Source: a bacterium (GTDB taxonomy: Bacteria > Calditrichota > Calditrichia > RBG-13-44-9 > J042). Taken from it: DNA of 64,000 nt. Made by a program: the position numbers and the translations under genes. Below the pieces are notes generated by a model. It was not told where the DNA came from. It made no database searches and was given only the letters and a program-made list of their open reading frames with translations. The stretch is taken from the NCBI GenBank assembly GCA_015485355.1, contig WFTQ01000034.1, forward strand, positions 1 through 64,000, read 5' to 3'. Shown piece by piece: positions 6,263 to 44,991 of the stretch (position 1 is the first letter of the stretch; each line of letters starts with the position of its first letter).

Positions 6263-7687
6263 CTACAGTATGAAGTACGATTCGTAGTCAATCCGGGCAT
6301 TTTTGAGCCGGTAAGCACCGCTACGACGATCCAGCACGTATTCACCCTTCCATTCTCTTCGGGCGATGGTCTGCAGAATGTGGATCAGGGTGTCGATTTC
6401 CTGTTCGGTATTGTAAATACCGAAACTCACCCGAACGGCCCCGGGGATCCGGGAACGATCTCCTCGACGAATATCTTCTTCGATGACGGCGGCTTCTTCT
6501 TCCGAAATACCCAACATCAGTTTGATGTATGGATGGGCGCAAAAACAACCGTTACGCACGGCAATACCGGCTTCGTGATTGAGGATGGCGGCCACCAGGG
6601 CATGGTGCAATGCTCCAATATTAAAGGTGATCACCCCCAGGCGATGTTCGACCTGATTGGGATCATCACCGCCAAGAATACGGATCTCGGGAATCTCCCG
6701 CAACCGTTCCAGGGCATACCGGGTCAGTCGGGCTTCGTGTTCCGCCACGCGCTCCATGCCGATTTCTTCCAGAACCATCATGGCTTTGACCATGGCCAGT
6801 ACACCGACCGTGTTGGGTGTACCGGCTTCTTCCTTTTCCGGGGGTGCCGTCCATTCGACCCGATCATAAGAGACGATGTCCACGGTGCCGCCGCCTACCA
6901 TGTCGGGTTCGCCCGTCTGGAAAACTGCCTGATCCCCGATCAGGACACCGGCGCCGAAGGGGGCGTACATTTTGTGAGCCGAAAAGGCTAAAAAATCAAT
7001 GTGACCCGGATCCGCTTGGGGTCGCATGTCGATCTTTCGATGGGGAATCAGTTGAGCAGCATCGACCAGAATCTTGACCCCATAGCGGTGGCAAATTGCC
7101 GCCAGGCGATGAATATCATTGACCCATCCAGTCACGTTCGAGGCTCCGGTGACGGCGAACAGTTTTACCCGATCCCTATGTTGTTCCAGTTGCCGAATCA
7201 GATCCTGTTCCCGCAGACGTCCCTGGGAATCCACATCGATGTGGATGACGCCGGCCCGCTTTCGCCAGGGAAGGTCGTTGGAATGATGCTCCATGCGGGT
7301 GACCAGTACATTGTCTCCCGGGGAAAGGTCCAGCCGGTGGGCCAGTTTGTTAATCGCCTCGGTGGTGTTCTTCACAAAGATCACCGCATGACCGGATAGG
7401 TCCAGCCCCACAAAGCGAGCGACTTGCTCCCTGGCCTGATCGTACAGTTCGGAACTGAGCTGGGATTTGAACCCGCTGCCTCGATGAATGCTGCTATACC
7501 AGTTCATCAGTTCGTTTATCTTATCGAGAACGGGCCGAAGGACGGGGGTACTGGCGGCGTTGTCGAAATTGATATACGGAGCGTGCGAGCCGTCCAGAAG
7601 CGGAACCCGGGTATGAATCCCCACCACATAATCCCGTACATTTTCGATGGTGATCCCGCCATGGGCGGATTGACGCAAATAGTCCAT
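6263..7687 (-). CDS. class V aminotransferase (cysteine desulfurase-like)
   Basis: 'YINFDNAASTPVLRPV', 'FVKNTTEAINKLAHRL', 'VLVDAAQLIPHRKID..HIDFLAFSAHKMYAPFGAGVLIG'. Confidence 0.9.
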   Translation of the reverse strand: MDYLRQSAHGGITIENVRDYVVGIHTRVPLLDGSHAPYINFDNAASTPVLRPVLDKINELMNWYSSIHRGSGFKSQLSSELYDQAREQVARFVGLDLSGHAVIFVKNTTEAINKLAHRLDLSPGDNVLVTRMEHHSNDLPWRKRAGVIHIDVDSQGRLREQDLIRQLEQHRDRVKLFAVTGASNVTGWVNDIHRLAAICHRYGVKILVDAAQLIPHRKIDMRPQADPGHIDFLAFSAHKMYAPFGAGVLIGDQAVFQTGEPDMVGGGTVDIVSYDRVEWTAPPEKEEAGTPNTVGVLAMVKAMMVLEEIGMERVAEHEARLTRYALERLREIPEIRILGGDDPNQVEHRLGVITFNIGALHHALVAAILNHEAGIAVRNGCFCAHPYIKLMLGISEEEAAVIEEDIRRGDRSRIPGAVRVSFGIYNTEQEIDTLIHILQTIARREWKGEYVLDRRSGAYRLKNARIDYESYFIL

Positions 7688-7760
7688 AAGGCATTTCCCC
7701 TGGATTTTGGTTGCAATGTCCGGCTCTATGAGAAAGATCGGGAAGATGATCCGAAACGCA

Positions 7761-8338
7761 TTACCTCGGATACGAAACGAATCGCATTTTTAAATAAAAT
7801 AAGAGAAGAATGGTTAAAAAGCTCAAGAAAGTACTTTTTTCGGACTTTAAGGCCGCCTTCAGGTCCGGGTCGACCGGATGCGCTGGCGGTGCGGGGGAGA
7901 AGCGGGGGAAAAAGCGCGGGACCTGCTGTTGATACCGGCGATAAGTGGACCCAAACAATTCCGTCAACTTTTGCTCCTCCAGGCGGACAATCCAGTAATA
8001 CTGAAAACCGAAATAAATCCAGACGATGAATAGGAGCCAGGGAGTCCACACGTTGGGGATGATCGCCGCCCCGGTGTAGATGAGCATGTTCCCGAGGTAA
8101 AGGGGGTTGCGCACATAGGCGAAAGGACCGTCAGTCACCAGTCGGGGGGCACCCACCTGGCGGGTGCGAGTAGCCCCTCCGGCGTAGCTCACTCCCCAGA
8201 GGCGAATCGCTTCTCCCAAAAGCATGCCCATAAGGCCCAGAAAAAAGGATTGGGGTGTGGGCCGGGCAAAGTATACAATGATCAGCACCAGGGGTAGCGG
8301 GGTTATACCGCGGTATTTGAAAAAGAATTCTCCCAGTG

Positions 8339-8342
<4 letters not shown>
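7761..8342 (-). CDS. isoprenylcysteine carboxyl methyltransferase-like / methyltransferase family membrane protein
   Basis: 'LVTDGPFAYVRNPLYLGNMLIYTGAAI...RLEEQKLTELFGSTYRRYQQQVPRFFPRF', typical of ICMT/PEMT family. Confidence 0.85.
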
Positions 8343-9353
<1,011 letters not shown>

Positions 9354-12380: not shown

Positions 12381-13280
12381 TCAATCCCGGGAGGGTTCGG
12401 TGAGCGCCAGGGCAATGCCAAAGACAATAAAGGGGCCCCCCACAAAAAACATCTTTGCGGGTACTTCCTGAAAAAATAGATAGGCCAGCAGAGAGGCCAG
12501 AATCAATTCACCCAGAAGCATCAGGTTGATTTTATAGACCTGGATGCGGCGGGCCGCCCAATTGATCAGCGAATGCCCTACTCCCGTTGGTCCCATGGCC
12601 AGCAGGAACATGAATAAATGAACGGTCCAGGTATAGCGAATCAGTTCGTGTCCTGCAGAGAGGTTGAGGAGCAGCAGCACCAGCGTGGCCGATCCGTATA
12701 CCATAAGCAAATAAGGCGATAAATCGATATGCCCCCGCAGGTAGCGGGCGATGAGCAAGTAAAAAGTAACAAACACGGCGCTAATCAGGGCCAGCATGTC
12801 CCCGATGAAGTATCCGGGGGCGAAAGTGAGGTCATACCCGCCGATGAGGAAAATTCCCACCAGGGTGACGGAGACGGCAATGCCGGTGCGATAAGAACTC
12901 TTTTCTTTCAGCCAGATGCGGGAAAACCAGACCGCAAAGACTGGATGTGTGGATTCCAATACCAGCGATTGGGCCACCGTGGTGAATTGGAGGGAGGCAA
13001 TCCAGGTGGCGAAATGGAGGGCCAACATGGCCCCGGCAATGAAAACCAGTACGAAATGGCTCCCGGAAAGCCCCTTCAGTTGCCAGAAATGTCTTCGGAC
13101 CGAGGCCAGAGAAAAGGTTCCGAATAGCAAAAACGACCACCAGAGCCGGTAGAACGATATGACGAGTGCAGGCGTTTCTCCACACCAGCGGATTAGAATG
13201 GACGCCCAGGAAGTCATGAACACCGCAAAAATCAGGATCAAGTAGGTGATCGGTTTTGGGGGGCTCGGCTTGCTTTGCAT
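12381..13280 (-). CDS. EamA/DMT family transporter (two-repeat)
   Basis: 10-TM-like; 'VLESTHPVFAVWFSRIWLKEK' and 'MLLGELILASLLAYLFFQEVP'. Confidence 0.88.
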   Translation of the reverse strand: MQSKPSPPKPITYLILIFAVFMTSWASILIRWCGETPALVISFYRLWWSFLLFGTFSLASVRRHFWQLKGLSGSHFVLVFIAGAMLALHFATWIASLQFTTVAQSLVLESTHPVFAVWFSRIWLKEKSSYRTGIAVSVTLVGIFLIGGYDLTFAPGYFIGDMLALISAVFVTFYLLIARYLRGHIDLSPYLLMVYGSATLVLLLLNLSAGHELIRYTWTVHLFMFLLAMGPTGVGHSLINWAARRIQVYKINLMLLGELILASLLAYLFFQEVPAKMFFVGGPFIVFGIALALTEPSRD

Positions 13281-13396
13281 GGAATGTTTTGCTATAATAT
13301 GCTCGAACGGGATTTTAACATTTTTTCAGTACCGAAAGGAAATAAAATATATAAAAAAAAGATCAGTAGGTATGATTTAAATTTTTGGAGGACACA

Positions 13397-13579
13397 ATGG
13401 ACTTCAACGAGATCGCTCTGGAGTTTGTAAAAATTTATTATTCCTGCCATCCCAAACAATTGCCCGAGGACAAGGAGGAGGCGTTTAAGGAAATGTCCCG
13501 GCTTCATGGAAAATATAAAAACAAACTGATTGAAAAGGCTCATCGGAAAAGCGAAGATTTCTTTAGTGACAAGTTGTAG
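13397..13579 (+). CDS. small conserved-looking hypothetical protein
   Basis: 'MDFNEIALEFVKIYYSCHPKQLPEDKEEAFKEMSRLHGKY...' preceded by GGAGG RBS. Confidence 0.65.
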   Translation: MDFNEIALEFVKIYYSCHPKQLPEDKEEAFKEMSRLHGKYKNKLIEKAHRKSEDFFSDKL

Positions 13580-24456: not shown

Positions 24457-24474
24457 TCCCTTCTTTATTAAGTT

Positions 24475-24495
24475 GATAACTCAGTTTACACTTGT
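24475..24495 (-). promoter_or_regulatory. candidate regulator binding site (copy 1 of shared 21-nt motif)
   Basis: Minus strand ACAAGTGTAAACTGAGTTATC; 18/21 identical to 29332-29352. Confidence 0.55.
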
Positions 24496-24520: not shown

Positions 24521-24665
24521 GGAAGCGGACCGCAGGCAGAACAGGGTTTTCCGGGAAATGGTAAAACCAACGTCCCTGTGAAACCGATCCAGTATGGGGA
24601 AGCGTCGGGGTGAAGCGGGAACGGAACCAATGAGGGGTAAGCGCAGGAAAGGGAGAGCGACAGGA

Positions 24666-27600
24666 ATGGCTTTGCTTAGGACCGCATGGGTGTTGTGGCT
24701 GGTATGGCTATCGGTGGCCCTGCCCGATGCTTCGGGGGAGTCTCGCTGGGTCGAGGCCATGTTCGCTCGACCGGGGGGCCGCACGCTGATTCCGGAATTC
24801 GGCGATAGTTATGGAGTGGTGTTTCGGGATTTGAACCACGATGGGCTTCCCGATCTGTATGTGGTACGTTTTCGGAATTTGAATCGATTATTTGTGAATC
24901 CGGGGGGAGGCCGGCCCTTTGTGGACCGGACCATAGCGACCGGGCTGGGCGGTAACCTTATGCCGCGCAAAAAAGAGAACCTGGAACTCGGGGGTTCGGC
25001 GGTGGATTTTGATGACGATGGGCACGTGGATGTGCTTATCCTGGGATGGGGCGTTAGCACCCGCTTATTTCGGCAGGTAAAGCATTTTCGATTTCAGGAT
25101 GTTACCGAGACGATGGGGTTCACCCTGCCTCTGGATGGCAACATGGGTATATGGGGGGATGTGGATCGGGATGGAGACCTGGACCTGTTCATTACCGACG
25201 AGCACCATCCCAATCATCTGCTGATCAACGAAAAGGGACGGTTTTTTCGAGATCGGGCGTCGGAGTATGGCGTGGACTCTCCCGCCGTCAGTCAAGGCGC
25301 TGCTTTTGCCGATGTGGATCAGGATGGGGATCTGGATTTGTATGTCTGCAACTGGTTTGCTCCCGATGCCCTGTATGAAAATCGGGGGGGATACGAATTC
25401 CAGCGGGTCGAATTACCACTGTTTCATTTGACCCGTCCGGTCAACAGCAACAGCGTGTCTTTTGCCGATGTGGATAACGATGGGGACCTGGATTTTCTGG
25501 TGGCCGATCGGGATGGCCGGAGCCGGCTCTATTTAAATAGAATGACGCCGGGGGATACCGTCTGGTCTTTTCAGGAAGCACCTTTACCCTTCCAGGTGCG
25601 CAATGCCTATCCCGCCTATGGCAGTGTCATTGCGGATCTGAACAATGATGGTTGGCAAGATATCTATTTCACCAATATAGGTCCCAATCAATTCTTTCTG
25701 AATCGAGGGGGCCGGATACTGGAACTGGCTTTTCAGGAAAGGCTTTCCCGCTCTTCTCATAGTCAAAATTACAGTACCGGTGTGGCGGTGGCCGATGTGG
25801 ATCAGGATGGGGATCTGGATCTCTTTGTCGCCAACAAAGATACCCATTCGGTGCTGCTGTTAAATCCCCTGAATACCCGGCACAGTATCCGATTTGCCCT
25901 GGAGGGCGTGGGCAGCAATCGGGATGCCATTGGGGCAAAGATCTGGTTATACGTCCAGGATCCGGAAGGCCAAGCCGCTCAACTGGTCGGGTACCGCGAG
26001 ATCTTCGGGGGACAGGGATATCTATCTTTTAGTGAGCCCGTCGCCCATTTTGGGGTAGCACCGGAAAGCCGTTATATCGCCCGCATTGTCTTTCCCTCCG
26101 GAACGGAAATCTGGAAAACCTCGCTGGAAGCAGGCCATCGGTATCGAGTGGAGGAAAAGACAGGGCTGCCGAAATTTGCCTTTCGGTTCATCCACAATTT
26201 TCAGCGTCTGATGCTGGAGCCGAATTTCTGGATCAGTCTGGGCCTTTCTCTGATGATCCTGATCATGATAGTGGTGTTTCTTTCGCTGACAGGCAGTCGG
26301 TATCGCTGGCGAAACATGAGCTTTAATGGGTTTATTCTGCTCATTCTTGTTTTGCTGTATGGGGTTTTCTGGTTCTACCGGGATGCGCCGGTCCAAAAAA
26401 TTCTATTAATCCAGTTGGGGATTTTGGTGGTGCTGTTGGGGAGTACCATAGCGGTACTGGAAAAAATTCATCAGATAGAGAAAAGGCGTTTTGGGTATCG
26501 GAAGCTGCTGCAAACATTTTCTCAGGATTTGATTTTCATTAAGACCAATTCGGAATTGTTCACCCAGCTGGCCGCCACTATTCACCGAGCGCTGGATAGC
26601 ACCCTGTGCCTGGTGATGGAAAAGCAAGGGGAAGTGCTCCGCGAGGTTGTGCGCTCGGGGAAGACCCTGCCCCAAACTTCTGAAATTCGATTGACTCACG
26701 AAGAGCAACGGTTGCTGACGGGGGGTAAGATTCTGGCCTGCACCGAAGTCCGAAAGCAATTGCCCTATTTCGCCGGGATTCCCTGTGATTACTTGATTCC
26801 CATCGGGCGCAGAGATACTTTGTATGCGGTGTTGGTATTGGTGGTGGGGGAGGGGCGCCGGGAACTCAGCGCCGAGGATCGGAGCCTGTTGCAAATTGTC
26901 GCCAATCAGGCCGCAATTGCCATCGAAAATAATCGCTTCATCGAAGAAACCAAACAGTTAATCCAGAAGATCACCGAGGCGGAGGTCCGGGAAAAATACG
27001 TGCAGCAATTAGAGCGTAAAAACCAGGAGTTGGCGCGATTGTACCAGGAACTGAAAGATGCTCAGGCCCAGCTCATTCAGAGCGAGAAAATGTCCAGTCT
27101 GGGACAACTGGTTGCCGGGGTGGCCCATGAATTGAATAACCCCCTTAGTTTCGTGTATGCCAATCTCAAAGCGCTTCAGGAATATGTGGAAGCCCTCTCT
27201 CAGGTGCTGCATACGGTGTTGGCCCATCTGGAGCGTCCCGATTTACGGCAACGCCTTCAGCAGACGATCCAGCGGCTGCAGCAGAGCCACGACTTAAATT
27301 TTATTTTAAAGGACACCTCAACGTTGATCCGGGAAAGTCTGGAGGGCAGTCGCCGGGTCAAAGAAGTGGTTCAGAATCTGAGAAATTTCTCGCGTCTGGA
27401 TGAGGCCGAATGCAAGGCCGTTGATTTGCACGAGGGACTGGAGTCCACTCTGGTTTTATTGCGCAATGAGCTTCGCGATCGGATTCAGGTACACAAACAG
27501 TATGGCAAGTTACCCTTGGTCACCTGTCAGCCGGGACAAATCAATCAGGTGTTCATGAATATCCTGTTAAATGCCATTCAAGCTATCGAAGGGAAGGGTA

Positions 27601-27878
27601 ATATCTGGATTCGCACTTCCGTGCAGGCCGGGACGGTGAGCGTGGAGATACGGGACGACGGGAAAGGGATTCCCAAAGAGGTGCTGCCGCACATTTTCGA
27701 TCCCTTCTTTACCACCAAACCGGTGGGCGAAGGCACCGGCTTGGGGTTGAGCATCTGTTATCGCATTGTCCAGGACCATGGAGGCACCATAGAGGTAGAG
27801 AGTGAACCGGGTGGGGGTAGCATTTTTCGAATTTATTTGCCCCTATCCCGGTCCCGTAACAAGGAATCTGATGAATGA
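24666..27878 (+). CDS. hybrid-architecture sensor histidine kinase: FG-GAP/VCBS repeats + ASPIC/UnbV + TM + GAF-like + HisKA/HATPase
   Basis: Repeats such as 'DVDRDGDLDLFITDEHHPN', 'DVDQDGDLDLYVCNWF', 'DVDNDGDLDFLVAD'; 'SNRDAIGAKIWLYV...REIFGGQGYLSFSEPVAHFGV'; three hydrophobic helices; 'LGQLVAGVAHELNNPLSFVYANL'; 'NQVFMNILLNAIQAI', 'IRDDGKGIPKEVLPHIFDPFFTTKPVGEGTGLGLSI'. ORF track start is 24594; 24666 is preferred because the signal peptide starts there. Confidence 0.93.
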   Translation: MALLRTAWVLWLVWLSVALPDASGESRWVEAMFARPGGRTLIPEFGDSYGVVFRDLNHDGLPDLYVVRFRNLNRLFVNPGGGRPFVDRTIATGLGGNLMPRKKENLELGGSAVDFDDDGHVDVLILGWGVSTRLFRQVKHFRFQDVTETMGFTLPLDGNMGIWGDVDRDGDLDLFITDEHHPNHLLINEKGRFFRDRASEYGVDSPAVSQGAAFADVDQDGDLDLYVCNWFAPDALYENRGGYEFQRVELPLFHLTRPVNSNSVSFADVDNDGDLDFLVADRDGRSRLYLNRMTPGDTVWSFQEAPLPFQVRNAYPAYGSVIADLNNDGWQDIYFTNIGPNQFFLNRGGRILELAFQERLSRSSHSQNYSTGVAVADVDQDGDLDLFVANKDTHSVLLLNPLNTRHSIRFALEGVGSNRDAIGAKIWLYVQDPEGQAAQLVGYREIFGGQGYLSFSEPVAHFGVAPESRYIARIVFPSGTEIWKTSLEAGHRYRVEEKTGLPKFAFRFIHNFQRLMLEPNFWISLGLSLMILIMIVVFLSLTGSRYRWRNMSFNGFILLILVLLYGVFWFYRDAPVQKILLIQLGILVVLLGSTIAVLEKIHQIEKRRFGYRKLLQTFSQDLIFIKTNSELFTQLAATIHRALDSTLCLVMEKQGEVLREVVRSGKTLPQTSEIRLTHEEQRLLTGGKILACTEVRKQLPYFAGIPCDYLIPIGRRDTLYAVLVLVVGEGRRELSAEDRSLLQIVANQAAIAIENNRFIEETKQLIQKITEAEVREKYVQQLERKNQELARLYQELKDAQAQLIQSEKMSSLGQLVAGVAHELNNPLSFVYANLKALQEYVEALSQVLHTVLAHLERPDLRQRLQQTIQRLQQSHDLNFILKDTSTLIRESLEGSRRVKEVVQNLRNFSRLDEAECKAVDLHEGLESTLVLLRNELRDRIQVHKQYGKLPLVTCQPGQINQVFMNILLNAIQAIEGKGNIWIRTSVQAGTVSVEIRDDGKGIPKEVLPHIFDPFFTTKPVGEGTGLGLSICYRIVQDHGGTIEVESEPGGGSIFRIYLPLSRSRNKESDE

Positions 27879-29329
27879 AAGCGAAGCGACGATTAAAAGT
27901 ACTGGCGGTAGACGATGAGCCGGGCATATTGCATGCCATCCAGCGCGTTTTACGACGGGACTTTGATGTCGTTCTATCGGCCTCTCCTCTTTCGGCGCTG
28001 GAGGTGTTGCGGGATCAGGAAATCGCCGTGATGCTGGTGGATCAGCGCATGCCGGAGATGACCGGGGTGGAACTCTTGCGCAAGGCACGAGAAATCCGGC
28101 CCGAAGCCGTCCGCATCTTAATTACTGGCTATTCCGACATTGATGCGACCATTCAAGCAATTAACGAGGGTCAGGTGTTTTATTACATTCAGAAACCCTG
28201 GGAACCCGAGGAACTCCGCCTGATTGTTCGACGCGCCGGAGAGCATTTTCAGTTGAAAAAAGACAATGATCGCCTGGTGGAGGAATTAAAACAGGCGAAC
28301 GAGCGGCTCCGAAGAGAAAATATCCTGCTGCATCGGGAAATGGAAGCGGAGTATGCTTTCGATCAGATTATTGGAAAAAGTTCTGCCATGCAGCAAGTAT
28401 TTCATCTGTTAAAGAAGGTGATCCCTACGGATGTCACCGTGTTGATTACCGGAGAAACCGGCACCGGAAAGGAACTGATTGCACGTGCCATTCACTTTAA
28501 TGGACCCCGGAAGCAGAAAATGTTTGTAAGCCAGAATTGTGCGTCCTTGCCGGAAACCCTCCTGGAAAGCGAATTGTTTGGGCACGTGAAAGGGGCGTTT
28601 ACCGGGGCCACCCGGGACAAAAAGGGTCTCTTCGAAATCGCCGATGGGGGGACTATTTTCCTGGATGAGATCGGGGAAACGTCCCCGGAATTTCAAAAAC
28701 GATTGTTGCGCGTTTTACAGGAGGGGGAGATTCATCCCGTCGGCTCCGAAAAAACCATTCATATCGATGTGCGGATCATTTCGGCTACGAATCGGGATTT
28801 AACCCGGGCAGTGGCGGAAGGAAAATTTCGGGAGGATTTATTTTACCGATTGAATGTTTTTCCCATTCATTTGCCTCCGTTAAGAGAACGGCGGGAAGAT
28901 ATTCTGGAGTTGGCTCACCATTTTGTCCAAAAATATGCCCTCAAAATGGGTAAATCCATTGCCGGCATCAGCGAATCGGCCTTGCAACTGTTGCAGGAAT
29001 ACGATTATCCCGGAAATGTTCGGCAGCTGGAAAATATTATTGAGCGGGCGGTCGTTCTGGCCGACGAGGGCATGGAAGTTACCCCGGAATTGATCGACTT
29101 ACCCGGGTCCGCAGGGACCGCCGCGAGACTGGGGGAAACCGTTTCCGGAAAAAATCCGGGGTTGAAAAAACGGGTGGAAGAGCTGGAACGCTATTGCATC
29201 GAGCAAGCCCTGCAGCGCCATCGTGGAAACATCAGTCGGGCCGCCCGGGAGCTGGGGCTCAGTCGAATGGGGCTGCACAAAAAGTTGCAACGCTATCGGG
29301 TGGATTTAAAACGCTATAAACAAAGTTAG
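27875..29329 (+). CDS. NtrC-family sigma-54-dependent response regulator
   Basis: REC '[31 protein letters not shown]'; AAA+ '[79 protein letters not shown]'; Fis-type HTH. ATGA overlap with kinase. Confidence 0.98.
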
Positions 29330-29352
29330 CAACAAGTGTAAACAAAGTTGTC
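29317..29352 (+). promoter_or_regulatory. candidate enhancer/UAS: tandem TAAACAAAGTT elements including copy 2 of the 21-nt motif
   Basis: TAAACAAAGTT at 29317-29327 and 29339-29349 (22-nt spacing); ACAAGTGTAAACAAAGTTGTC at 29332-29352. Confidence 0.5.
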
Positions 29353-29452
29353 GGTTTTAAAGCGGTTTCTAAGCACCGAGGAAATAGCCTTCCACTTAAT
29401 TTCTCTAAAAAAATAAAGAATTTTGTGATGTCGCCTTTCCCATAGAATCTTT

Positions 29453-29467
29453 TGGCACATATATTGA
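29453..29467 (+). promoter_or_regulatory. candidate sigma-54 (-24/-12) promoter
   Basis: TGGCAC-ATATA-TTGA: GG and the -12 element at canonical spacing, but -12 reads GA instead of GC. Confidence 0.5.
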
Positions 29468-29505
29468 GTTATAAAAGAGTGGAATCAAAAAGGGGTGATC
29501 GAAAG

Positions 29506-30768
29506 ATGAAAACATGGCGATCTGTTTTACTAATATTGATAGGCATCGTTTCCCTGACAATTTTTCAGGGTTGTTATACCACTTTCGGAACCACCCGCGG
29601 GGTAACCTCTACCACCGTTGTGTATGGGGACGAAGAATCTGATTATGTTGAGGTCGATACCGTCTATGATGCTTATGCGTATGACGCCGACGGGAGCGGA
29701 ACCCTGGTTCAGAATTACTATATTTACAACAGAGGTTTTTTGACCGGTGGATGGTATGATCCGTTTGTTTACGATCCTTTCTATTACGACCCATTCTATT
29801 ACAGTCCCTTTGTGAGTATTCATCTGGGATTGTATTTTGGTCGGCCGTTCTGGTATTATCCGCCTCCCGTGGTGGTTTACTCTCCGTACTGGTCCCAACA
29901 TTTTTATTGGTGGGATTATTACTATTATCCAGCATATTGGGGATATTATGACTATTACGGGTACTACCCTTATTATTGGGATGGTTTTTACTGGGGCGGT
30001 TGGTACAATTATGGATATGTAAGGGAACGGGCTCCGTATAAGCGTCGAGAATGGGATCGTCGGAGGCCTCTGGTCCAGAACCGGGAGCCGTCGGATCGCA
30101 TGCGGGGGGAGGGTACCCGCCAGATAACCTCCAGCCCGGTTGTTACCGAGAGTTCCAGAAGAGTGGTTGATGAACGGACCGGGAGGACGGTGATTGATCG
30201 GAAAATCGTCGATCGCAAACGCCAGCGCCAGAGGAACCCCCAGATCGTTCGCAACCGGGAACGAAGAGAGCTGAGCAATGCCCCGGATCAGAAGAGAAGA
30301 CAGCGCATTATTCGTAAGGTGTATGATAGGGAGCGGACGCGCAAAGCGATCGTCAGGTCGAAGGATCGAGGTGAGAAACGGGAGGTACGGGCCCAAAAGA
30401 AAACGGAACGGAAAATCGTCCGCACCAAAAATCCTCGCCGGGTGGAAAAGAAGGTGGTTCGTTCTCAGGGACGGCGGTCGGCGCCCCGGAAAGAGATTCA
30501 CCGAAGCCGAAACCGAGATAATCAGCAATACCGACGCACTAATCGAAAGGGTGGGGATGAGGCGGTCGCCCCCGCACGAAAGAGCCCTTCTCCCCGCAAG
30601 TCCTATCGTTCCAGCCGAACGGGCTCTTCTCATCGTCCCAGCTATCGTTCGTCCTCTCGTTCCATGGGCCGGAGCAGTTGGAGAAGCAGTGGCGGCACCC
30701 GTTCCGGGCGTTCATCGGGAATGGTTCGTAGCGCCCCCTCGCGCGGTACCGCCGCCAAACGTCGTTGA
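29506..30768 (+). CDS. lipoprotein with Tyr/Trp-rich low-complexity domain and long Arg/Lys-rich then RS/RG-rich C-terminus
   Basis: 'MKTWRSVLLILIGIVSLTIFQGC' lipobox; 'YDPFVYDPFYYDPFYYSPF...FYWWDYYYYPAYWGYYDYYGYYPYYWDGFYWGGW'; Arg-rich tail to '...GRSSGMVRSAPSRGTAAKRR'. Confidence 0.85.
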   Translation: MKTWRSVLLILIGIVSLTIFQGCYTTFGTTRGVTSTTVVYGDEESDYVEVDTVYDAYAYDADGSGTLVQNYYIYNRGFLTGGWYDPFVYDPFYYDPFYYSPFVSIHLGLYFGRPFWYYPPPVVVYSPYWSQHFYWWDYYYYPAYWGYYDYYGYYPYYWDGFYWGGWYNYGYVRERAPYKRREWDRRRPLVQNREPSDRMRGEGTRQITSSPVVTESSRRVVDERTGRTVIDRKIVDRKRQRQRNPQIVRNRERRELSNAPDQKRRQRIIRKVYDRERTRKAIVRSKDRGEKREVRAQKKTERKIVRTKNPRRVEKKVVRSQGRRSAPRKEIHRSRNRDNQQYRRTNRKGGDEAVAPARKSPSPRKSYRSSRTGSSHRPSYRSSSRSMGRSSWRSSGGTRSGRSSGMVRSAPSRGTAAKRR

Positions 30769-30795: not shown

Positions 30796-32160
30796 ATGTG
30801 GAAGATTGCATTGAGCCTTTTATGCCTACTGGGGATCAGCGGGTGGAGCCAGAGTGCTTATGACGCGGTTCGCATTGTGCAGGATGAAATGGGCTTTGGC
30901 GCACGGGCCCTCTCCATGGGAGGCGCATTGACTGCGGCAACCGATAATTATCTCTCCCTTTACTGGAATCCCGCCGGTCTGGCCTCTCTACGCCAGTCCG
31001 AATTTTATGGCGAACTCTCCCACATCAATTTTAACAATTCGGCGACTTTTTATGATCAAACCACAAATCAAAGTCAAGGATTTACCCAGGTGCGAGCGAT
31101 TGGTTTTGCTTTGCCGTTGCCCACCACCCGGGGTAGCTTTGTCCTGGGATTTGGTTATAACCGCGTGAAGGATTTTGAACAATCGCTGCTGTTCGAAGGG
31201 TATAATACCGTTAGTAATGGACTGGAATTTCCGGTGGAGGAGAATGGGCAGGTGGTGTATTATCCTTTTGATAAGGACGTCCAGCAAACCGAAGAGGTCA
31301 ACAACGAGGGAGGATTGCGGAATTGGAGTGTGGCGGCCGCCATGGCTCTTTCGCCCAATTTTGACTTGGGCGTGAGCCTGGATGTCTGGCGAGGGCAGGA
31401 GAATTATCAATTGCTCTTTTACCAGAAGGACATCAACAATATCTATTCAAATTTCCCCGCCGATTTTGATTCTTACCAGTATGAAGAAACCATTCAGTCG
31501 AATTATTCGGCAATCGGATTGAAAGTGGGTGGGATGTTTAAATTGGGTGGATTTGCTCGTCTGGGAGCCACGATCGGGTTGCCGGTCACTTTCACCATCG
31601 CAGAGTCGTATCGGGTAACGGATGAATTGATTTACGATGACGGGTTTTCCGATACCCAGGAACTGGATCGCGGAGAATTCCAGTACAAAGTACAAACGCC
31701 GTTTTATTTTGACGGCGGTATCTCCCTGAACGTCTGGCCTTTTACGCTGGCCGCCGGTTTCCGCTATCGAGATTGGTCCCAAACGCGTTTTATTATTCCG
31801 GACAATTCCCTGGATGATCCCGATTATGGTGCATTATTGGAAGAAAATCGGGGCATTCGTCGGGGATATCGGGAAACCATTCGGTACCATGTGGGGGGAG
31901 AATGGGCCTTGAGCGACTTGTTTCGCGTGCGAGCAGGCTATGCCTATTTCCCTTCCCCTTTTCGGAACGCCTCCCGAAAGATGGACCGTGTGTATCTCAC
32001 TTCGGGACTGGGATTGAAATTGGATCAGTATGTTTTCCTGGATATCTCTTATTTATACGGTACCTGGAAGCAAGAGTCGGAGGACTTCCTGACTCCGGGA
32101 GGTACGCTGGAGGATATCCGTGTGTCCCGCATTTTAATTGGATTGTCTTATAAATTTTGA
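30796..32160 (+). CDS. outer-membrane beta-barrel protein (FadL/PorV-like)
   Basis: Signal peptide; 'GFGARALSMGGALTAATDNYLSLYWNPAGLASLRQSEFYGELSH'; C-terminal '...VSRILIGLSYKF'. Confidence 0.85.
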   Translation: MWKIALSLLCLLGISGWSQSAYDAVRIVQDEMGFGARALSMGGALTAATDNYLSLYWNPAGLASLRQSEFYGELSHINFNNSATFYDQTTNQSQGFTQVRAIGFALPLPTTRGSFVLGFGYNRVKDFEQSLLFEGYNTVSNGLEFPVEENGQVVYYPFDKDVQQTEEVNNEGGLRNWSVAAAMALSPNFDLGVSLDVWRGQENYQLLFYQKDINNIYSNFPADFDSYQYEETIQSNYSAIGLKVGGMFKLGGFARLGATIGLPVTFTIAESYRVTDELIYDDGFSDTQELDRGEFQYKVQTPFYFDGGISLNVWPFTLAAGFRYRDWSQTRFIIPDNSLDDPDYGALLEENRGIRRGYRETIRYHVGGEWALSDLFRVRAGYAYFPSPFRNASRKMDRVYLTSGLGLKLDQYVFLDISYLYGTWKQESEDFLTPGGTLEDIRVSRILIGLSYKF

Positions 32161-41618: not shown

Positions 41619-43715
41619 ATGAAAAAAGTACAATGGCTTGTCACGGCTCTGGTTTTGGGCCTGTTCATCCTCTCCTGCAATTTTCGGGAACCGGTGCTTC
41701 CCCGCTGGAGCGTTCCCTTGTTGCTCCCCCTTTCTGAACAAACATTTTCCATGGACGAACTGCTGGGCGATTCCAGTTTCGTGGCCGACAACCCCGATTC
41801 CATGTTGACGTTGCAGGTCAATGGCGAGATCGATCCGGAATCACTGGATGAAAGCGACCTGGCCTTTAAACCTCAGGGCAGCTCGAATCGTCTGGAAATC
41901 GGAACCCTGCGACTGGACTCTCTACAGGCCATGAATACGGGTATGATCACATTGGCCGAGATTTTCCCGGAGCTCGCCAGCCTTCCCACGGGAGCGCAGG
42001 TGGTCATCCCGGAAACCACCCTGGTTCCCCCCGCGAAAATTCTGTTGGCCGAAGACTATAAATGGATTTATCTGGAAAAGGGCACCATCATCATACGGGT
42101 CATCAACAACCTGCCCTTTGATTTGGGGCCGAATAACTCCTCCGCCGGCATTCGGTTTGTGGTGAAAAACGACAGCCTGGGCAATCAAGTTAGCGAAGTT
42201 TTAATTGACCGGGTGGTGGCTACCGGCACCCAGGGAGAAGGCCGGGATGACATCATGGCCGGGGGGGTGTATGTATACGATCGGTTACGGCTGGAATATA
42301 ACGTTCCTATCGCCCGGAAAGATACCATCACCATTAGCGATGAGGTGTTAAATCAAACCGGTATCCAGATTATTGTCGATCTGGCGGAAATGGAAGCCAG
42401 CGCCGTACGGGCGAAACTGGAATCCCAGGAATTTCGGCGGACAATTCGGTTCGCCCTGAACGGACGCCACAAAATCAAGTCCGGTGTGGTGAAACGGGGG
42501 AGTTTCTATTTATCGTTTCGCAATGAAACCGGTATTTCCGGTAAAATTGTTTTCACCATTCCCAGTCTCCTTCGAAGCGATGGGACAACGTTTCAGGATA
42601 GTCTGTTTATCGATCAACAGCCCATTAGCCGGGTCATCGCCCTGGATGGCATTCGCATTCAGAACCCGATAGACCCGAACCTTCCCCTGGATAGTATTGA
42701 TGTGATCGTCGATACCCGGACCAGGGGATCGGATCAGTTCGTTACCGTGCAGAGCAGCGATCGGATTGTCGCCGAAATCTCTTCGGATTCCCTATTCTTC
42801 CAATCATTCAACGGCATTCTGGCTCCCGAGACGATTGACTTTGGGCCCTTTGAAGAGAAAAATATTGCCGATTATAACCGCTTAAAGGGCACCGGTATTC
42901 AGCTGGCAAACGTGAAATTGATTTTGGACCTGTTCAACGAGTTGTACATAGAGGACTTGCGATTGGATCTCACGATTTGGGGTTATCATGAGGATGAAAA
43001 CGGTGTGATAACCGATTCCGCAAAAATCGAGATCCTGGATCAACAGATCAGTTCCGGGCAACCGGGCGATCCCGGTAAAACCCGGTTCGTTTTGACGGGT
43101 CCGGAAGTGGTGGATTTTGTGAATATACTTCCTACCACCATCCGGGGTGAGGGGAAGATCACCGCTTCGGGAGAGTCCGAAGTGGTTCTGGGGAGTCAGG
43201 TCTGGGCGAATTACGAGTTAACCACCCCCTTGCAATTTTCCCTTCAAGGAATGGAACCCATCCAGAGCCGGGTGGATACGCTGACCGACCAGGATATCGA
43301 TCAGGAACTGCGGGACGCGTTACGAAACGATTTTCAAGAAGCCGGTTTAACCCTCAACCTGATCAATCATACACCCTTAGGGGGCCGTATTCGGATGATG
43401 GTTACACGCGATTCTTTACGCACCGATATGTTTGATACCACAACATTTAATCCCGCCAAAGAATTCATTAAAAAAATTCAATTGAATCCAGCGCCGGTTA
43501 ATCCGGTCACCGGCTTTGTGGACCAGCCCGGTGAGAATGAGATCTTATTCAATCTCACCCGACGGGAAATGCGGATTCTCAGTCAACCTCCGCTACGGGT
43601 GGCCTATGAGCTACAGATTGCCGATACGAAGGGTACGGTAGCCCTGCGAACCGTGGATTACATTAAAATTTCCGGTCAGGTCAAATTAACGGTGATTGTC
43701 AATGAAAATCAGTAG
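41619..43715 (+). CDS. large predicted lipoprotein, hypothetical
   Basis: 'MKKVQWLVTALVLGLFILSCNFREPVLPRWSVPLLLPLSEQTFSMDELLGDSS'; coupled with the next gene. Confidence 0.82.
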   Translation: MKKVQWLVTALVLGLFILSCNFREPVLPRWSVPLLLPLSEQTFSMDELLGDSSFVADNPDSMLTLQVNGEIDPESLDESDLAFKPQGSSNRLEIGTLRLDSLQAMNTGMITLAEIFPELASLPTGAQVVIPETTLVPPAKILLAEDYKWIYLEKGTIIIRVINNLPFDLGPNNSSAGIRFVVKNDSLGNQVSEVLIDRVVATGTQGEGRDDIMAGGVYVYDRLRLEYNVPIARKDTITISDEVLNQTGIQIIVDLAEMEASAVRAKLESQEFRRTIRFALNGRHKIKSGVVKRGSFYLSFRNETGISGKIVFTIPSLLRSDGTTFQDSLFIDQQPISRVIALDGIRIQNPIDPNLPLDSIDVIVDTRTRGSDQFVTVQSSDRIVAEISSDSLFFQSFNGILAPETIDFGPFEEKNIADYNRLKGTGIQLANVKLILDLFNELYIEDLRLDLTIWGYHEDENGVITDSAKIEILDQQISSGQPGDPGKTRFVLTGPEVVDFVNILPTTIRGEGKITASGESEVVLGSQVWANYELTTPLQFSLQGMEPIQSRVDTLTDQDIDQELRDALRNDFQEAGLTLNLINHTPLGGRIRMMVTRDSLRTDMFDTTTFNPAKEFIKKIQLNPAPVNPVTGFVDQPGENEILFNLTRREMRILSQPPLRVAYELQIADTKGTVALRTVDYIKISGQVKLTVIVNENQ

Positions 43716-43722
43716 GGATCCT

Positions 43723-44991
43723 ATGAAACATGCTATTCTATTCCTTTTTAACGTTTGGCTGTTGTTGCCCTCGATGGTCGGGGCCCAGATGTCATTCGAT
43801 GCCCGCTCAGTCGCCATGGGCAGCAGCAACAGTGCCGATGCTCAGGGGTTGGAACAGGTGGGAACCAATCCGGCTACCCTGGCGCTGTATCGACCCTTCA
43901 ATTTTGAGTTTAACCTCCTTACGCTGAACGTCAGTGCCTATAACAACAGCATTACGAAGGGATTGTACGATCGGTATTTCACCACCGGGGATTCCCTTAC
44001 CCAGGCCGACAAGGAAGAAATCTTAGGGGCCATTGATGCTTCGGGGCTTAAGGGAAGCTTCTGGGCTAATGTCAACACCCTGGCGTTTTATACCCGCAAC
44101 TTAAGTCTTTCTCTTGCCATAATGGGGAATGGATTCATACAAGCCCCCAAGGTTCTGTTCGAATTGCCCTTGAAAGGGAATACGGAATTAGATCGCACCT
44201 ATAGATTTGACGACATTAACGGGGAAGGGTGGTTAGGGTTGGCGGCCACTCTGGGACTGTCGAGGCCCCTGGAACTGGATTTTCTGGAAAACTATTTCGA
44301 TTTTTTTGCCGTCGGGTTGTCTTTTAAATACCTGGCGGGGATCGTTTACGCGGAGGTGGAACAATCCCGGGGTGAATTTTTCAATGGTGCAAATTATTTG
44401 CTGCTGGATTCCCGGGTCTCCCTTCGAGAGGCCCGGGGAGGCAAGGGTATTGCCTTCGATCTGGGTTTTATTGGTCGATACGAAGATAAATGGACGGTCA
44501 GTTTGGCTTTGATGAATCCCATTGGCAGCATTCGTTGGACCAAAGAGACCCAACAACGGATACTGACCATTCGGGCGGATAGTTTGTCAATCCCGGATCG
44601 CCTGGCGGATAGTCTGATCGTGAATGCAGATACCAGTTTCGCGATCGATCCGTTTCGTACCCGGTTGCCGGTGATCCTGGACCTGGCCGTGGCCTATCGC
44701 TGGAGTAGCGACTTGCTGATCACCGGCGAATATGAACAGGGCCTGAATCGCTCTATGGGGGGCACTACCACACCTCGTCTGGCTGCCGGCGTGGAATATA
44801 CCATTTTCCCGGTGATCCCCCTGCGCGCAGGCATCTCTATTGGAGGGAAGTCGGGATTTACTGTCGCCTTCGGTGCAGGGATTAATTTGCAGGTCTGGTA
44901 CCTGGATGTCGCTTTCATGAATCGCGGGAGCCTTTTCCCGGGCGGCAGCAAGGGCTTCACCCTGGCAATCACCAGTCGATTTCGGTTTTAA
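43723..44991 (+). CDS. outer-membrane beta-barrel protein (DUF5723-like)
   Basis: Signal peptide; 'FDARSVAMGSSNSADAQGLEQVGTNPATLAL...'; C-terminal '...FTLAITSRFRF'. Start placed at the ATG after AGGGATCCT. Confidence 0.78.
   Translation: MKHAILFLFNVWLLLPSMVGAQMSFDARSVAMGSSNSADAQGLEQVGTNPATLALYRPFNFEFNLLTLNVSAYNNSITKGLYDRYFTTGDSLTQADKEEILGAIDASGLKGSFWANVNTLAFYTRNLSLSLAIMGNGFIQAPKVLFELPLKGNTELDRTYRFDDINGEGWLGLAATLGLSRPLELDFLENYFDFFAVGLSFKYLAGIVYAEVEQSRGEFFNGANYLLLDSRVSLREARGGKGIAFDLGFIGRYEDKWTVSLALMNPIGSIRWTKETQQRILTIRADSLSIPDRLADSLIVNADTSFAIDPFRTRLPVILDLAVAYRWSSDLLITGEYEQGLNRSMGGTTTPRLAAGVEYTIFPVIPLRAGISIGGKSGFTVAFGAGINLQVWYLDVAFMNRGSLFPGGSKGFTLAITSRFRF

Follow-up and report, generated by a model that had tools for sequence, protein, structure and literature searches.

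The window, the whole 64,000-nucleotide stretch of the Calditrichota contig WFTQ01000034.1 that was analysed, contains a lipoprotein gene situated between genes for a sensor kinase and its neighbouring regulator on one side and a gene for an outer-membrane beta-barrel on the other. The features of this locus are as follows.

24473..24491, no strand assigned: third copy of a palindrome, upstream of the kinase gene; weaker in relatives
24594..27878, plus strand: sensor histidine kinase with FG-GAP repeats, ASPIC/UnbV, membrane segments, GAF, HisKA and HATPase
27875..29329, plus strand: sigma-54-activating response regulator (receiver, AAA+, Fis HTH), from domain search and neighbourhood
29314..29332, plus strand: palindrome 1, CTATAAACAAAGTTAGCAA, candidate regulator binding site
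29336..29354, plus strand: palindrome 2, GTGTAAACAAAGTTGTCGG, 22 bp from palindrome 1
29452..29468, plus strand: sigma-54 -24/-12 promoter-like site, TTGGCACATATATTGAG, position conserved in relatives
29506..30768, plus strand: lipoprotein gene, 420 aa, from its intact ORF, composition and homologues
30796..32160, plus strand: FadL-fold outer-membrane beta-barrel, 454 aa, from Toluene_X, AlphaFold, Foldseek and conserved adjacency

The lipoprotein and its coding status

The lipoprotein ORF begins with the ATG at 29506, which is preceded by a purine-rich, ribosome-binding-like stretch, and ends with the stop codon at 30766-30768. Its translation matches the description given in a sequence-only reading of this DNA. 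The signal peptide ends in the lipobox FQGC (residues 20-23, with Cys23), and the mature protein starts with CYTTFG. An acidic linker leads to a Tyr/Trp-rich block (residues ~80-172), a junction motif (RREWDRR), an Arg/Lys block (~173-352) and an RS tail (353-420). The protein contains YDPFVYDPFYYDPFYYSPF and FYWWDYYYYPAYWGYYDYYGYYPYYWDGFYWGGW, followed by the Arg/Lys tract and then by the SR/RS tail, which ends in AKRR.

The N block (161 residues) is 37% Y/W/F and 5% R/K. Its net charge is -9, because the stretch between the lipobox and the aromatic block is acidic. The C block (237 residues) is 2% Y/W/F and 33% R/K, with a net charge of +55. The arrangement described from the sequence alone, a Tyr/Trp-rich block followed by an Arg-rich block and an RS tail, is therefore confirmed. 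A two-block protein can be defined as one in which 80 residues with at least 30% Y/W/F precede 80 residues with at least 20% R/K. The window has 55 non-overlapping ORFs of 100 aa or more, and by this definition the lipoprotein gene alone qualifies (0.53 and 0.44). Across all fetched loci, 50 of 754 ORFs qualify and nearly all are relatives of the lipoprotein. Chance composition is rejected, since this arrangement marks the lipoprotein family almost exclusively among the 754 ORFs.

The gene was compared with its nearest homologue, which comes from the same genus, is 61% identical at the amino acid level and keeps both blocks. Synonymous change is saturated across the blocks (pS 0.69-0.75). Nonsynonymous change is lowest in the aromatic block (pN 0.10) and higher in the Arg/Lys block (0.32) and the RS tail (0.34). 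The other two frames contain 12 and 18 stops in the window gene and 10 and 19 in the homologue. Saturated pS, low pN and stop-filled alternative frames indicate that the Arg-rich part is coding sequence in the correct frame. The frameshift artefact that the sequence-only reading had raised as a possible source of this part is rejected on these grounds and by the homologues. Judged by these rates, the strongest constraint lies on the aromatic block, and the basic part varies more in sequence with its composition kept.

The AlphaFold model of the lipoprotein has a mean pLDDT of 50, and the protein is predicted to be mostly disordered. The model contains no predicted folded domain and offers no fold usable for a structure search. 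Searches against Pfam and NCBIfam give no domain match, and a profile search of the PDB gives no significant relative, with composition-type matches only (E of at least 0.12). No described family was found for the lipoprotein, and the literature searched held nothing relevant on a Calditrichota lipoprotein of this type, on Tyr/Arg-rich lipoproteins linked to FadL or on cation-pi adhesives of bacteria.

Distribution of the lipoprotein and its barrel partner

A direct search with the lipoprotein gives matches in 7 of 60 genomes. A profile search finds it in 32 of 40 Calditrichota genomes and a wider profile in 37 of 40. Among the 40 Calditrichota homologues examined, identity to the window protein is 20-61% (just 20-32% for most), and all of them retain the two-block composition; composition is thus conserved better than sequence, as had been supposed. 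They share a common order of lipobox, Cys-Tyr-Thr, mostly acidic linker, aromatic block and basic block. The N blocks are net negative in every case. The aromatic blocks are 25-39% Y/W/F, and the basic blocks are 14-34% R/K, often Ser-rich, with net charges of +23 to +66. In most homologues a junction motif of the RRDWDRR or RPFxR type follows the aromatic block, and the intact C termini almost always finish with basic residues. In an alignment of 38 sequences, the invariant residues are Cys23, Tyr24 and Thr25, which together with the FQGC lipobox bears out the assignment as an exported lipoprotein.

In Bacteroidota, surface lipoproteins have at least two acidic residues among the six that follow the lipidated Cys (PMC12578637). 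This signal is present in none of the 40 homologues, by a rule that comes from Bacteroidota and may not hold in Calditrichota. If the rule carries over, its absence from all 40 favours the periplasmic side.

The barrel gene starts 27 bp downstream of the lipoprotein gene, and the two are likely to form one operon. The barrel belongs to Toluene_X (FadL) in Pfam (E=1.4e-17; 63.7 bits against a cut-off of 29.7) and is well folded in its AlphaFold model (pLDDT 92). The best Foldseek matches among solved structures are BamG from Bacteroides, FadL homologues and TodX, with E values from 2e-19 to 1e-12. The barrel is present in 38 of 40 Calditrichota genomes, where it lies side by side with the lipoprotein wherever contigs permit, with few exceptions. 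The G002 and G013 loci are interrupted by contig ends. In G005, the sequence read around an additional barrel copy (L111) shows no recognisable lipoprotein. The window also encodes another putative outer-membrane barrel (43696-44991), which is unlinked to a lipoprotein of the two-block kind.

Outside Calditrichota, the lipoprotein profile matches 16 genomes; 13 of the loci are testable, and 10 of these have a related barrel next to the lipoprotein. The out-of-phylum matches in L147 (a different protein type), L149 and L151 are probably compositional only. A barrel-based search provided 20 further out-of-phylum loci for reading. Of the 19 that are testable, 17 have a CYT lipoprotein immediately before the barrel, and one further locus has a truncated two-block ORF at the contig start. 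Many of the out-of-phylum lipoproteins are short (133-277 aa), contain a CxxC or CxxCH motif and have a Tyr/Trp patch of the YYxxPWWWDxYY type. In several short forms an RRRGL motif follows this patch and is repeated at the C terminus. The tails vary, and some are short, Pro-rich or acidic (that of L186 is rich in Asp/Pro).

What stays constant across phyla in these sequences is the CYT lipid end together with the aromatic patch and the barrel partner. By the same comparison, the large Arg/Ser-rich arm is an elaboration that Calditrichota share with some others, L141, L143 and L144 among them. Since the tails vary and the constant elements do not, the two-block design is lineage-dependent. The expectation that homologues would show the two-block composition holds throughout the 40 Calditrichota proteins and fails in several other phyla, where the tail is short or not basic.

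Several arrangements outside the common pattern were seen. A CxxCH or CxxC motif lies soon after the lipid anchor in L172, L173, L176, L178, L179, L181, L183-L187, L189 and L190, and a single CxxCH combined with a barrel, as in these short lipoproteins of other phyla, is odd for a cytochrome. In the L141 genome, a long form rich in Arg/Ser and a short one with CxxCH (7402-8619 and 13018-13539) lie a few kilobases apart. In L146 (1139-2647) a tandem pair of CYT lipoprotein genes precedes the barrel. In L148 (2747-3940) a CYT two-block lipoprotein occurs without a barrel within the 11-kb contig read.

The sequence-only reading proposed an adhesive, matrix or wall-binding role. As a surface or matrix adhesive, the lipoprotein would act through Tyr/Trp-Arg cation-pi contacts in the manner of mussel foot or FUS-type proteins. 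Its extreme and conserved composition, with the two residue kinds in separate blocks, and its predicted disorder are consistent with such a role. An adhesive would need surface exposure, but no homologue has the export signal by the Bacteroidota rule. The composition of the tail is not retained in other phyla, and the Pfam, NCBIfam and PDB searches give no sequence relationship to mussel-foot or FUS-type proteins. Adhesion at the surface therefore finds little favour here and is improbable, and a wall-binding role is plausible.

A tree of the barrels bears on a different possibility, that the pair is an accessory in the assembly of outer-membrane or surface proteins, like BamG/BamH. BamG is structurally the nearest match to the barrel. 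In BamG/BamH, too, a FadL-fold barrel is paired with a lipoprotein, whose lipidated end it binds, and BamG2/BamH2 is a putative operon (PMC12611786, PMC12578637). In the tree, however, the 50 lipoprotein-linked barrels (40 from Calditrichota and 10 from other phyla) form one clade with 0.96 support, and eight BamG candidates, taken from these genomes or related ones, group apart with 0.985 support. The barrel scores 61-66 bits against a cut-off of 250 bits for BamG (NCBIfam NF053685), and better BamG candidates are found elsewhere in the same genomes. Its identification as BamG is rejected, as is its identification as PorV/PorQ (59 bits against a cut-off of 90 bits, NCBIfam NF033709). The separate clades and the better BamG matches elsewhere indicate that the barrel is its own subgroup of FadL-fold proteins. 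The lipoprotein also has no predicted folded domain, and by analogy with BamG/BamH an assembly function for the pair would be a doubtful assignment.

Regulation of the lipoprotein-barrel operon

In most Calditrichota loci the kinase gene comes first and the sigma-54 regulator gene, upstream of the lipoprotein, second; the barrel gene is last, and all four read in the same direction. Second lipoprotein-barrel pairs without the kinase and regulator occur in L082, L085, L087, L088, L109 and L113. L014, L089 and L091 retain the promoter, though their regulator does not adjoin the lipoprotein. The extracytoplasmic FG-GAP repeats and ASPIC/UnbV of the kinase (24594-27878) are an unusual input domain that is conserved with the operon.

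The promoter-like site in the window ends 37 bp ahead of the lipoprotein ATG. Of 33 relatives' genomes, 24 have a -24/-12 site 45-65 bp ahead of the ATG, against a mean of 0.05 in shuffled sequences. In one family the site lies ~180-250 bp upstream, and in some of the remaining genomes its absence from the expected position probably reflects the choice of start codon. No -24/-12 site is present in any of the six paralogous lipoprotein-barrel pairs without a regulator, and none is present at 45-65 bp among the out-of-phylum lipoprotein genes scanned. L157, which has the site at the conserved distance, belongs to Calditrichota. A simple scan of a single genome is weak (p ~0.05 for the window), and the generic pattern TTGGCAYNNNNNTTGMW, which matches 4 places in the genome and misses the window site at the last base, is unselective alone. 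The promoter call is convincing because the position is conserved across relatives, not because of its score in a single genome.

Dyad counting in the upstream regions yields TGTWAAC-N3-GTTWACA. Across 31 upstream regions the mean palindrome score is 18.0, compared with 13.9 for shuffled sequences, in a test that is independent only for part of the loci, as the motif was derived from a handful of those scored. The palindromes lie mostly 70-210 bp upstream of the promoter. A pattern built from the window palindromes has 3 matches in the 3.44-Mb genome, all 3 in the lipoprotein locus, and its reversed control has 2. The kinase gene's upstream palindrome stands out in the window, is only hinted at in relatives and gives a hint of possible autoregulation. 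In L093, L094, L095, L096 and L106, GTGTAAATTNNGTTTACAC-type palindromes with the same half-sites overlap the kinase start and are a possible autoregulatory site.

The locus thus has the sequence features of a sigma-54-dependent operon: a -24/-12 site at a conserved distance, an activator nearby and candidate sites upstream. Together with the kinase and regulator genes upstream, the conserved promoter and the palindromes suggest that the neighbouring regulator very probably switches on the lipoprotein-barrel operon.

In another reading, the lipoprotein, held by the barrel, would report the state of the envelope to the adjacent kinase, as QseG does to QseE/QseF and RcsF to the Rcs system. The disordered basic arm would then reach or release the periplasmic propeller domain of the kinase. 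The four genes are neighbours in most Calditrichota, and the kinase gene, too, has a palindrome upstream of it. The outer-membrane lipoprotein QseG shares its locus with a kinase and with a regulator acting at sigma-54 promoters (PMC6075780), and the disordered segment of the RcsF lipoprotein is proposed to span a barrel lumen (PMC9907809). Outside Calditrichota, however, the pair mostly occurs without that kinase and regulator, which rules out signalling as its general function. The promoter arrangement, moreover, puts the pair among the regulator's targets, and no such autoregulation is found in the qseEGF operon (PMC6075780). A sensor role would be a rather unlikely explanation, though a less remote one than adhesion or assembly.

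Proposed function and comparison with known systems

The preferred reading is an inducible outer-membrane pair of lipoprotein and barrel, in which the disordered arm would bind anionic polymers of the envelope. Its probability is put at about 0.4. That the two proteins form a module, regulated as described, is highly probable. The role of the pair as a tether or brace is tentative and is preferred over a sensor arm, a biogenesis aid or a surface adhesive. The locus looks like a regulated part of the cell envelope rather than a sequence oddity. The barrel partner, the kinase and regulator and the sigma-54 promoter, all absent from the sequence-only reading, tell more of its function than composition does.

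Under the tether or brace reading, the kinase would sense an envelope defect and the regulator would induce the lipoprotein-barrel operon. In the BamG/BamH structures, the lipoprotein is attached to the FadL-fold barrel by its lipidated end (PMC12611786, PMC12578637). By this precedent, the invariant lipidated Cys-Tyr-Thr end would dock the lipoprotein beside or into its barrel, as BamH does on BamG, and the invariance of these residues would be explained. The aromatic block may pack at the membrane or barrel. The +55 arm, most likely periplasmic, would meet peptidoglycan and anionic lipids of the inner leaflet and may hold an anionic polymer such as peptidoglycan or lipopolysaccharide. The pair would in this way brace the envelope upon a defect sensed by the kinase. 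Since the basic tail is not universal across phyla, charge-based polymer binding cannot be the ancestral role of the family.

A more speculative possibility, and one with long odds, is a regulated extracytoplasmic coacervate or gel that would be formed from the acidic linker, aromatic stickers and cationic arm and nucleated on the dedicated FadL-fold barrel. If this were true, the envelope would gain an inducible disordered layer. We know of no description of a lipoprotein that forms condensates and has a barrel of its own.

The pair is nearly universal in one phylum and recurs elsewhere, which points to an outer-envelope component so far unrecognised, whose lipoprotein has no Pfam or NCBIfam entry. 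An extreme low-complexity composition, usually discussed for eukaryotic condensates, is here tied to a specific operon in bacteria. Its barrel partner is defined and it has a promoter and candidate binding sites, so that function and composition are both testable.

FUS-type and mussel-foot-type sticker proteins combine aromatic-rich and Arg/Lys-rich low-complexity segments. The resemblance to FUS noted from the sequence alone stands for composition, with neither a common domain nor homology found. The lipoprotein has no Pfam or NCBIfam domain, its Pfam and PDB searches give no match to FUS-type RNA-binding domains and no significant PDB relative, and it occupies a different compartment. The idea of a FUS-like condensate, an analogy of composition, is neither supported nor excluded.

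The QseE/QseG/QseF system of Escherichia coli likewise contains a kinase, an outer-membrane lipoprotein and a sigma-54-activating regulator in one locus (PMC6075780). Unlike QseG, the window lipoprotein has a sigma-54 promoter, a barrel partner and predicted disorder, and the likeness is one of gene neighbourhood only. RcsF is a lipoprotein with a disordered segment that is associated with a barrel (PMC9907809). It differs from the window lipoprotein in its folded core domain and in its barrel partners, which are general outer-membrane proteins. We know of no aromatic or Arg-rich blocks in RcsF.

PorV/PorQ of the type 9 secretion system also belong to a FadL-like barrel family, with a 59-bit NCBIfam match. 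The window barrel is below the 90-bit cut-off and its fold match is weaker than that to BamG. No partner of PorV/PorQ like the window lipoprotein is known to us.

BamG/BamH and BamG2/BamH2 of Bacteroidota likewise consist of a FadL-fold barrel and a lipoprotein and are the best structural match to the barrel. The window barrel differs in falling below the BamG cut-off and in forming its own clade. The window lipoprotein differs in that it is predicted to be disordered and lacks an acidic export signal, and it has no NCBIfam match. FadL-fold barrels with dedicated lipoproteins are known so far from BamG/BamH, and the pair described here suggests that they are a broader theme.
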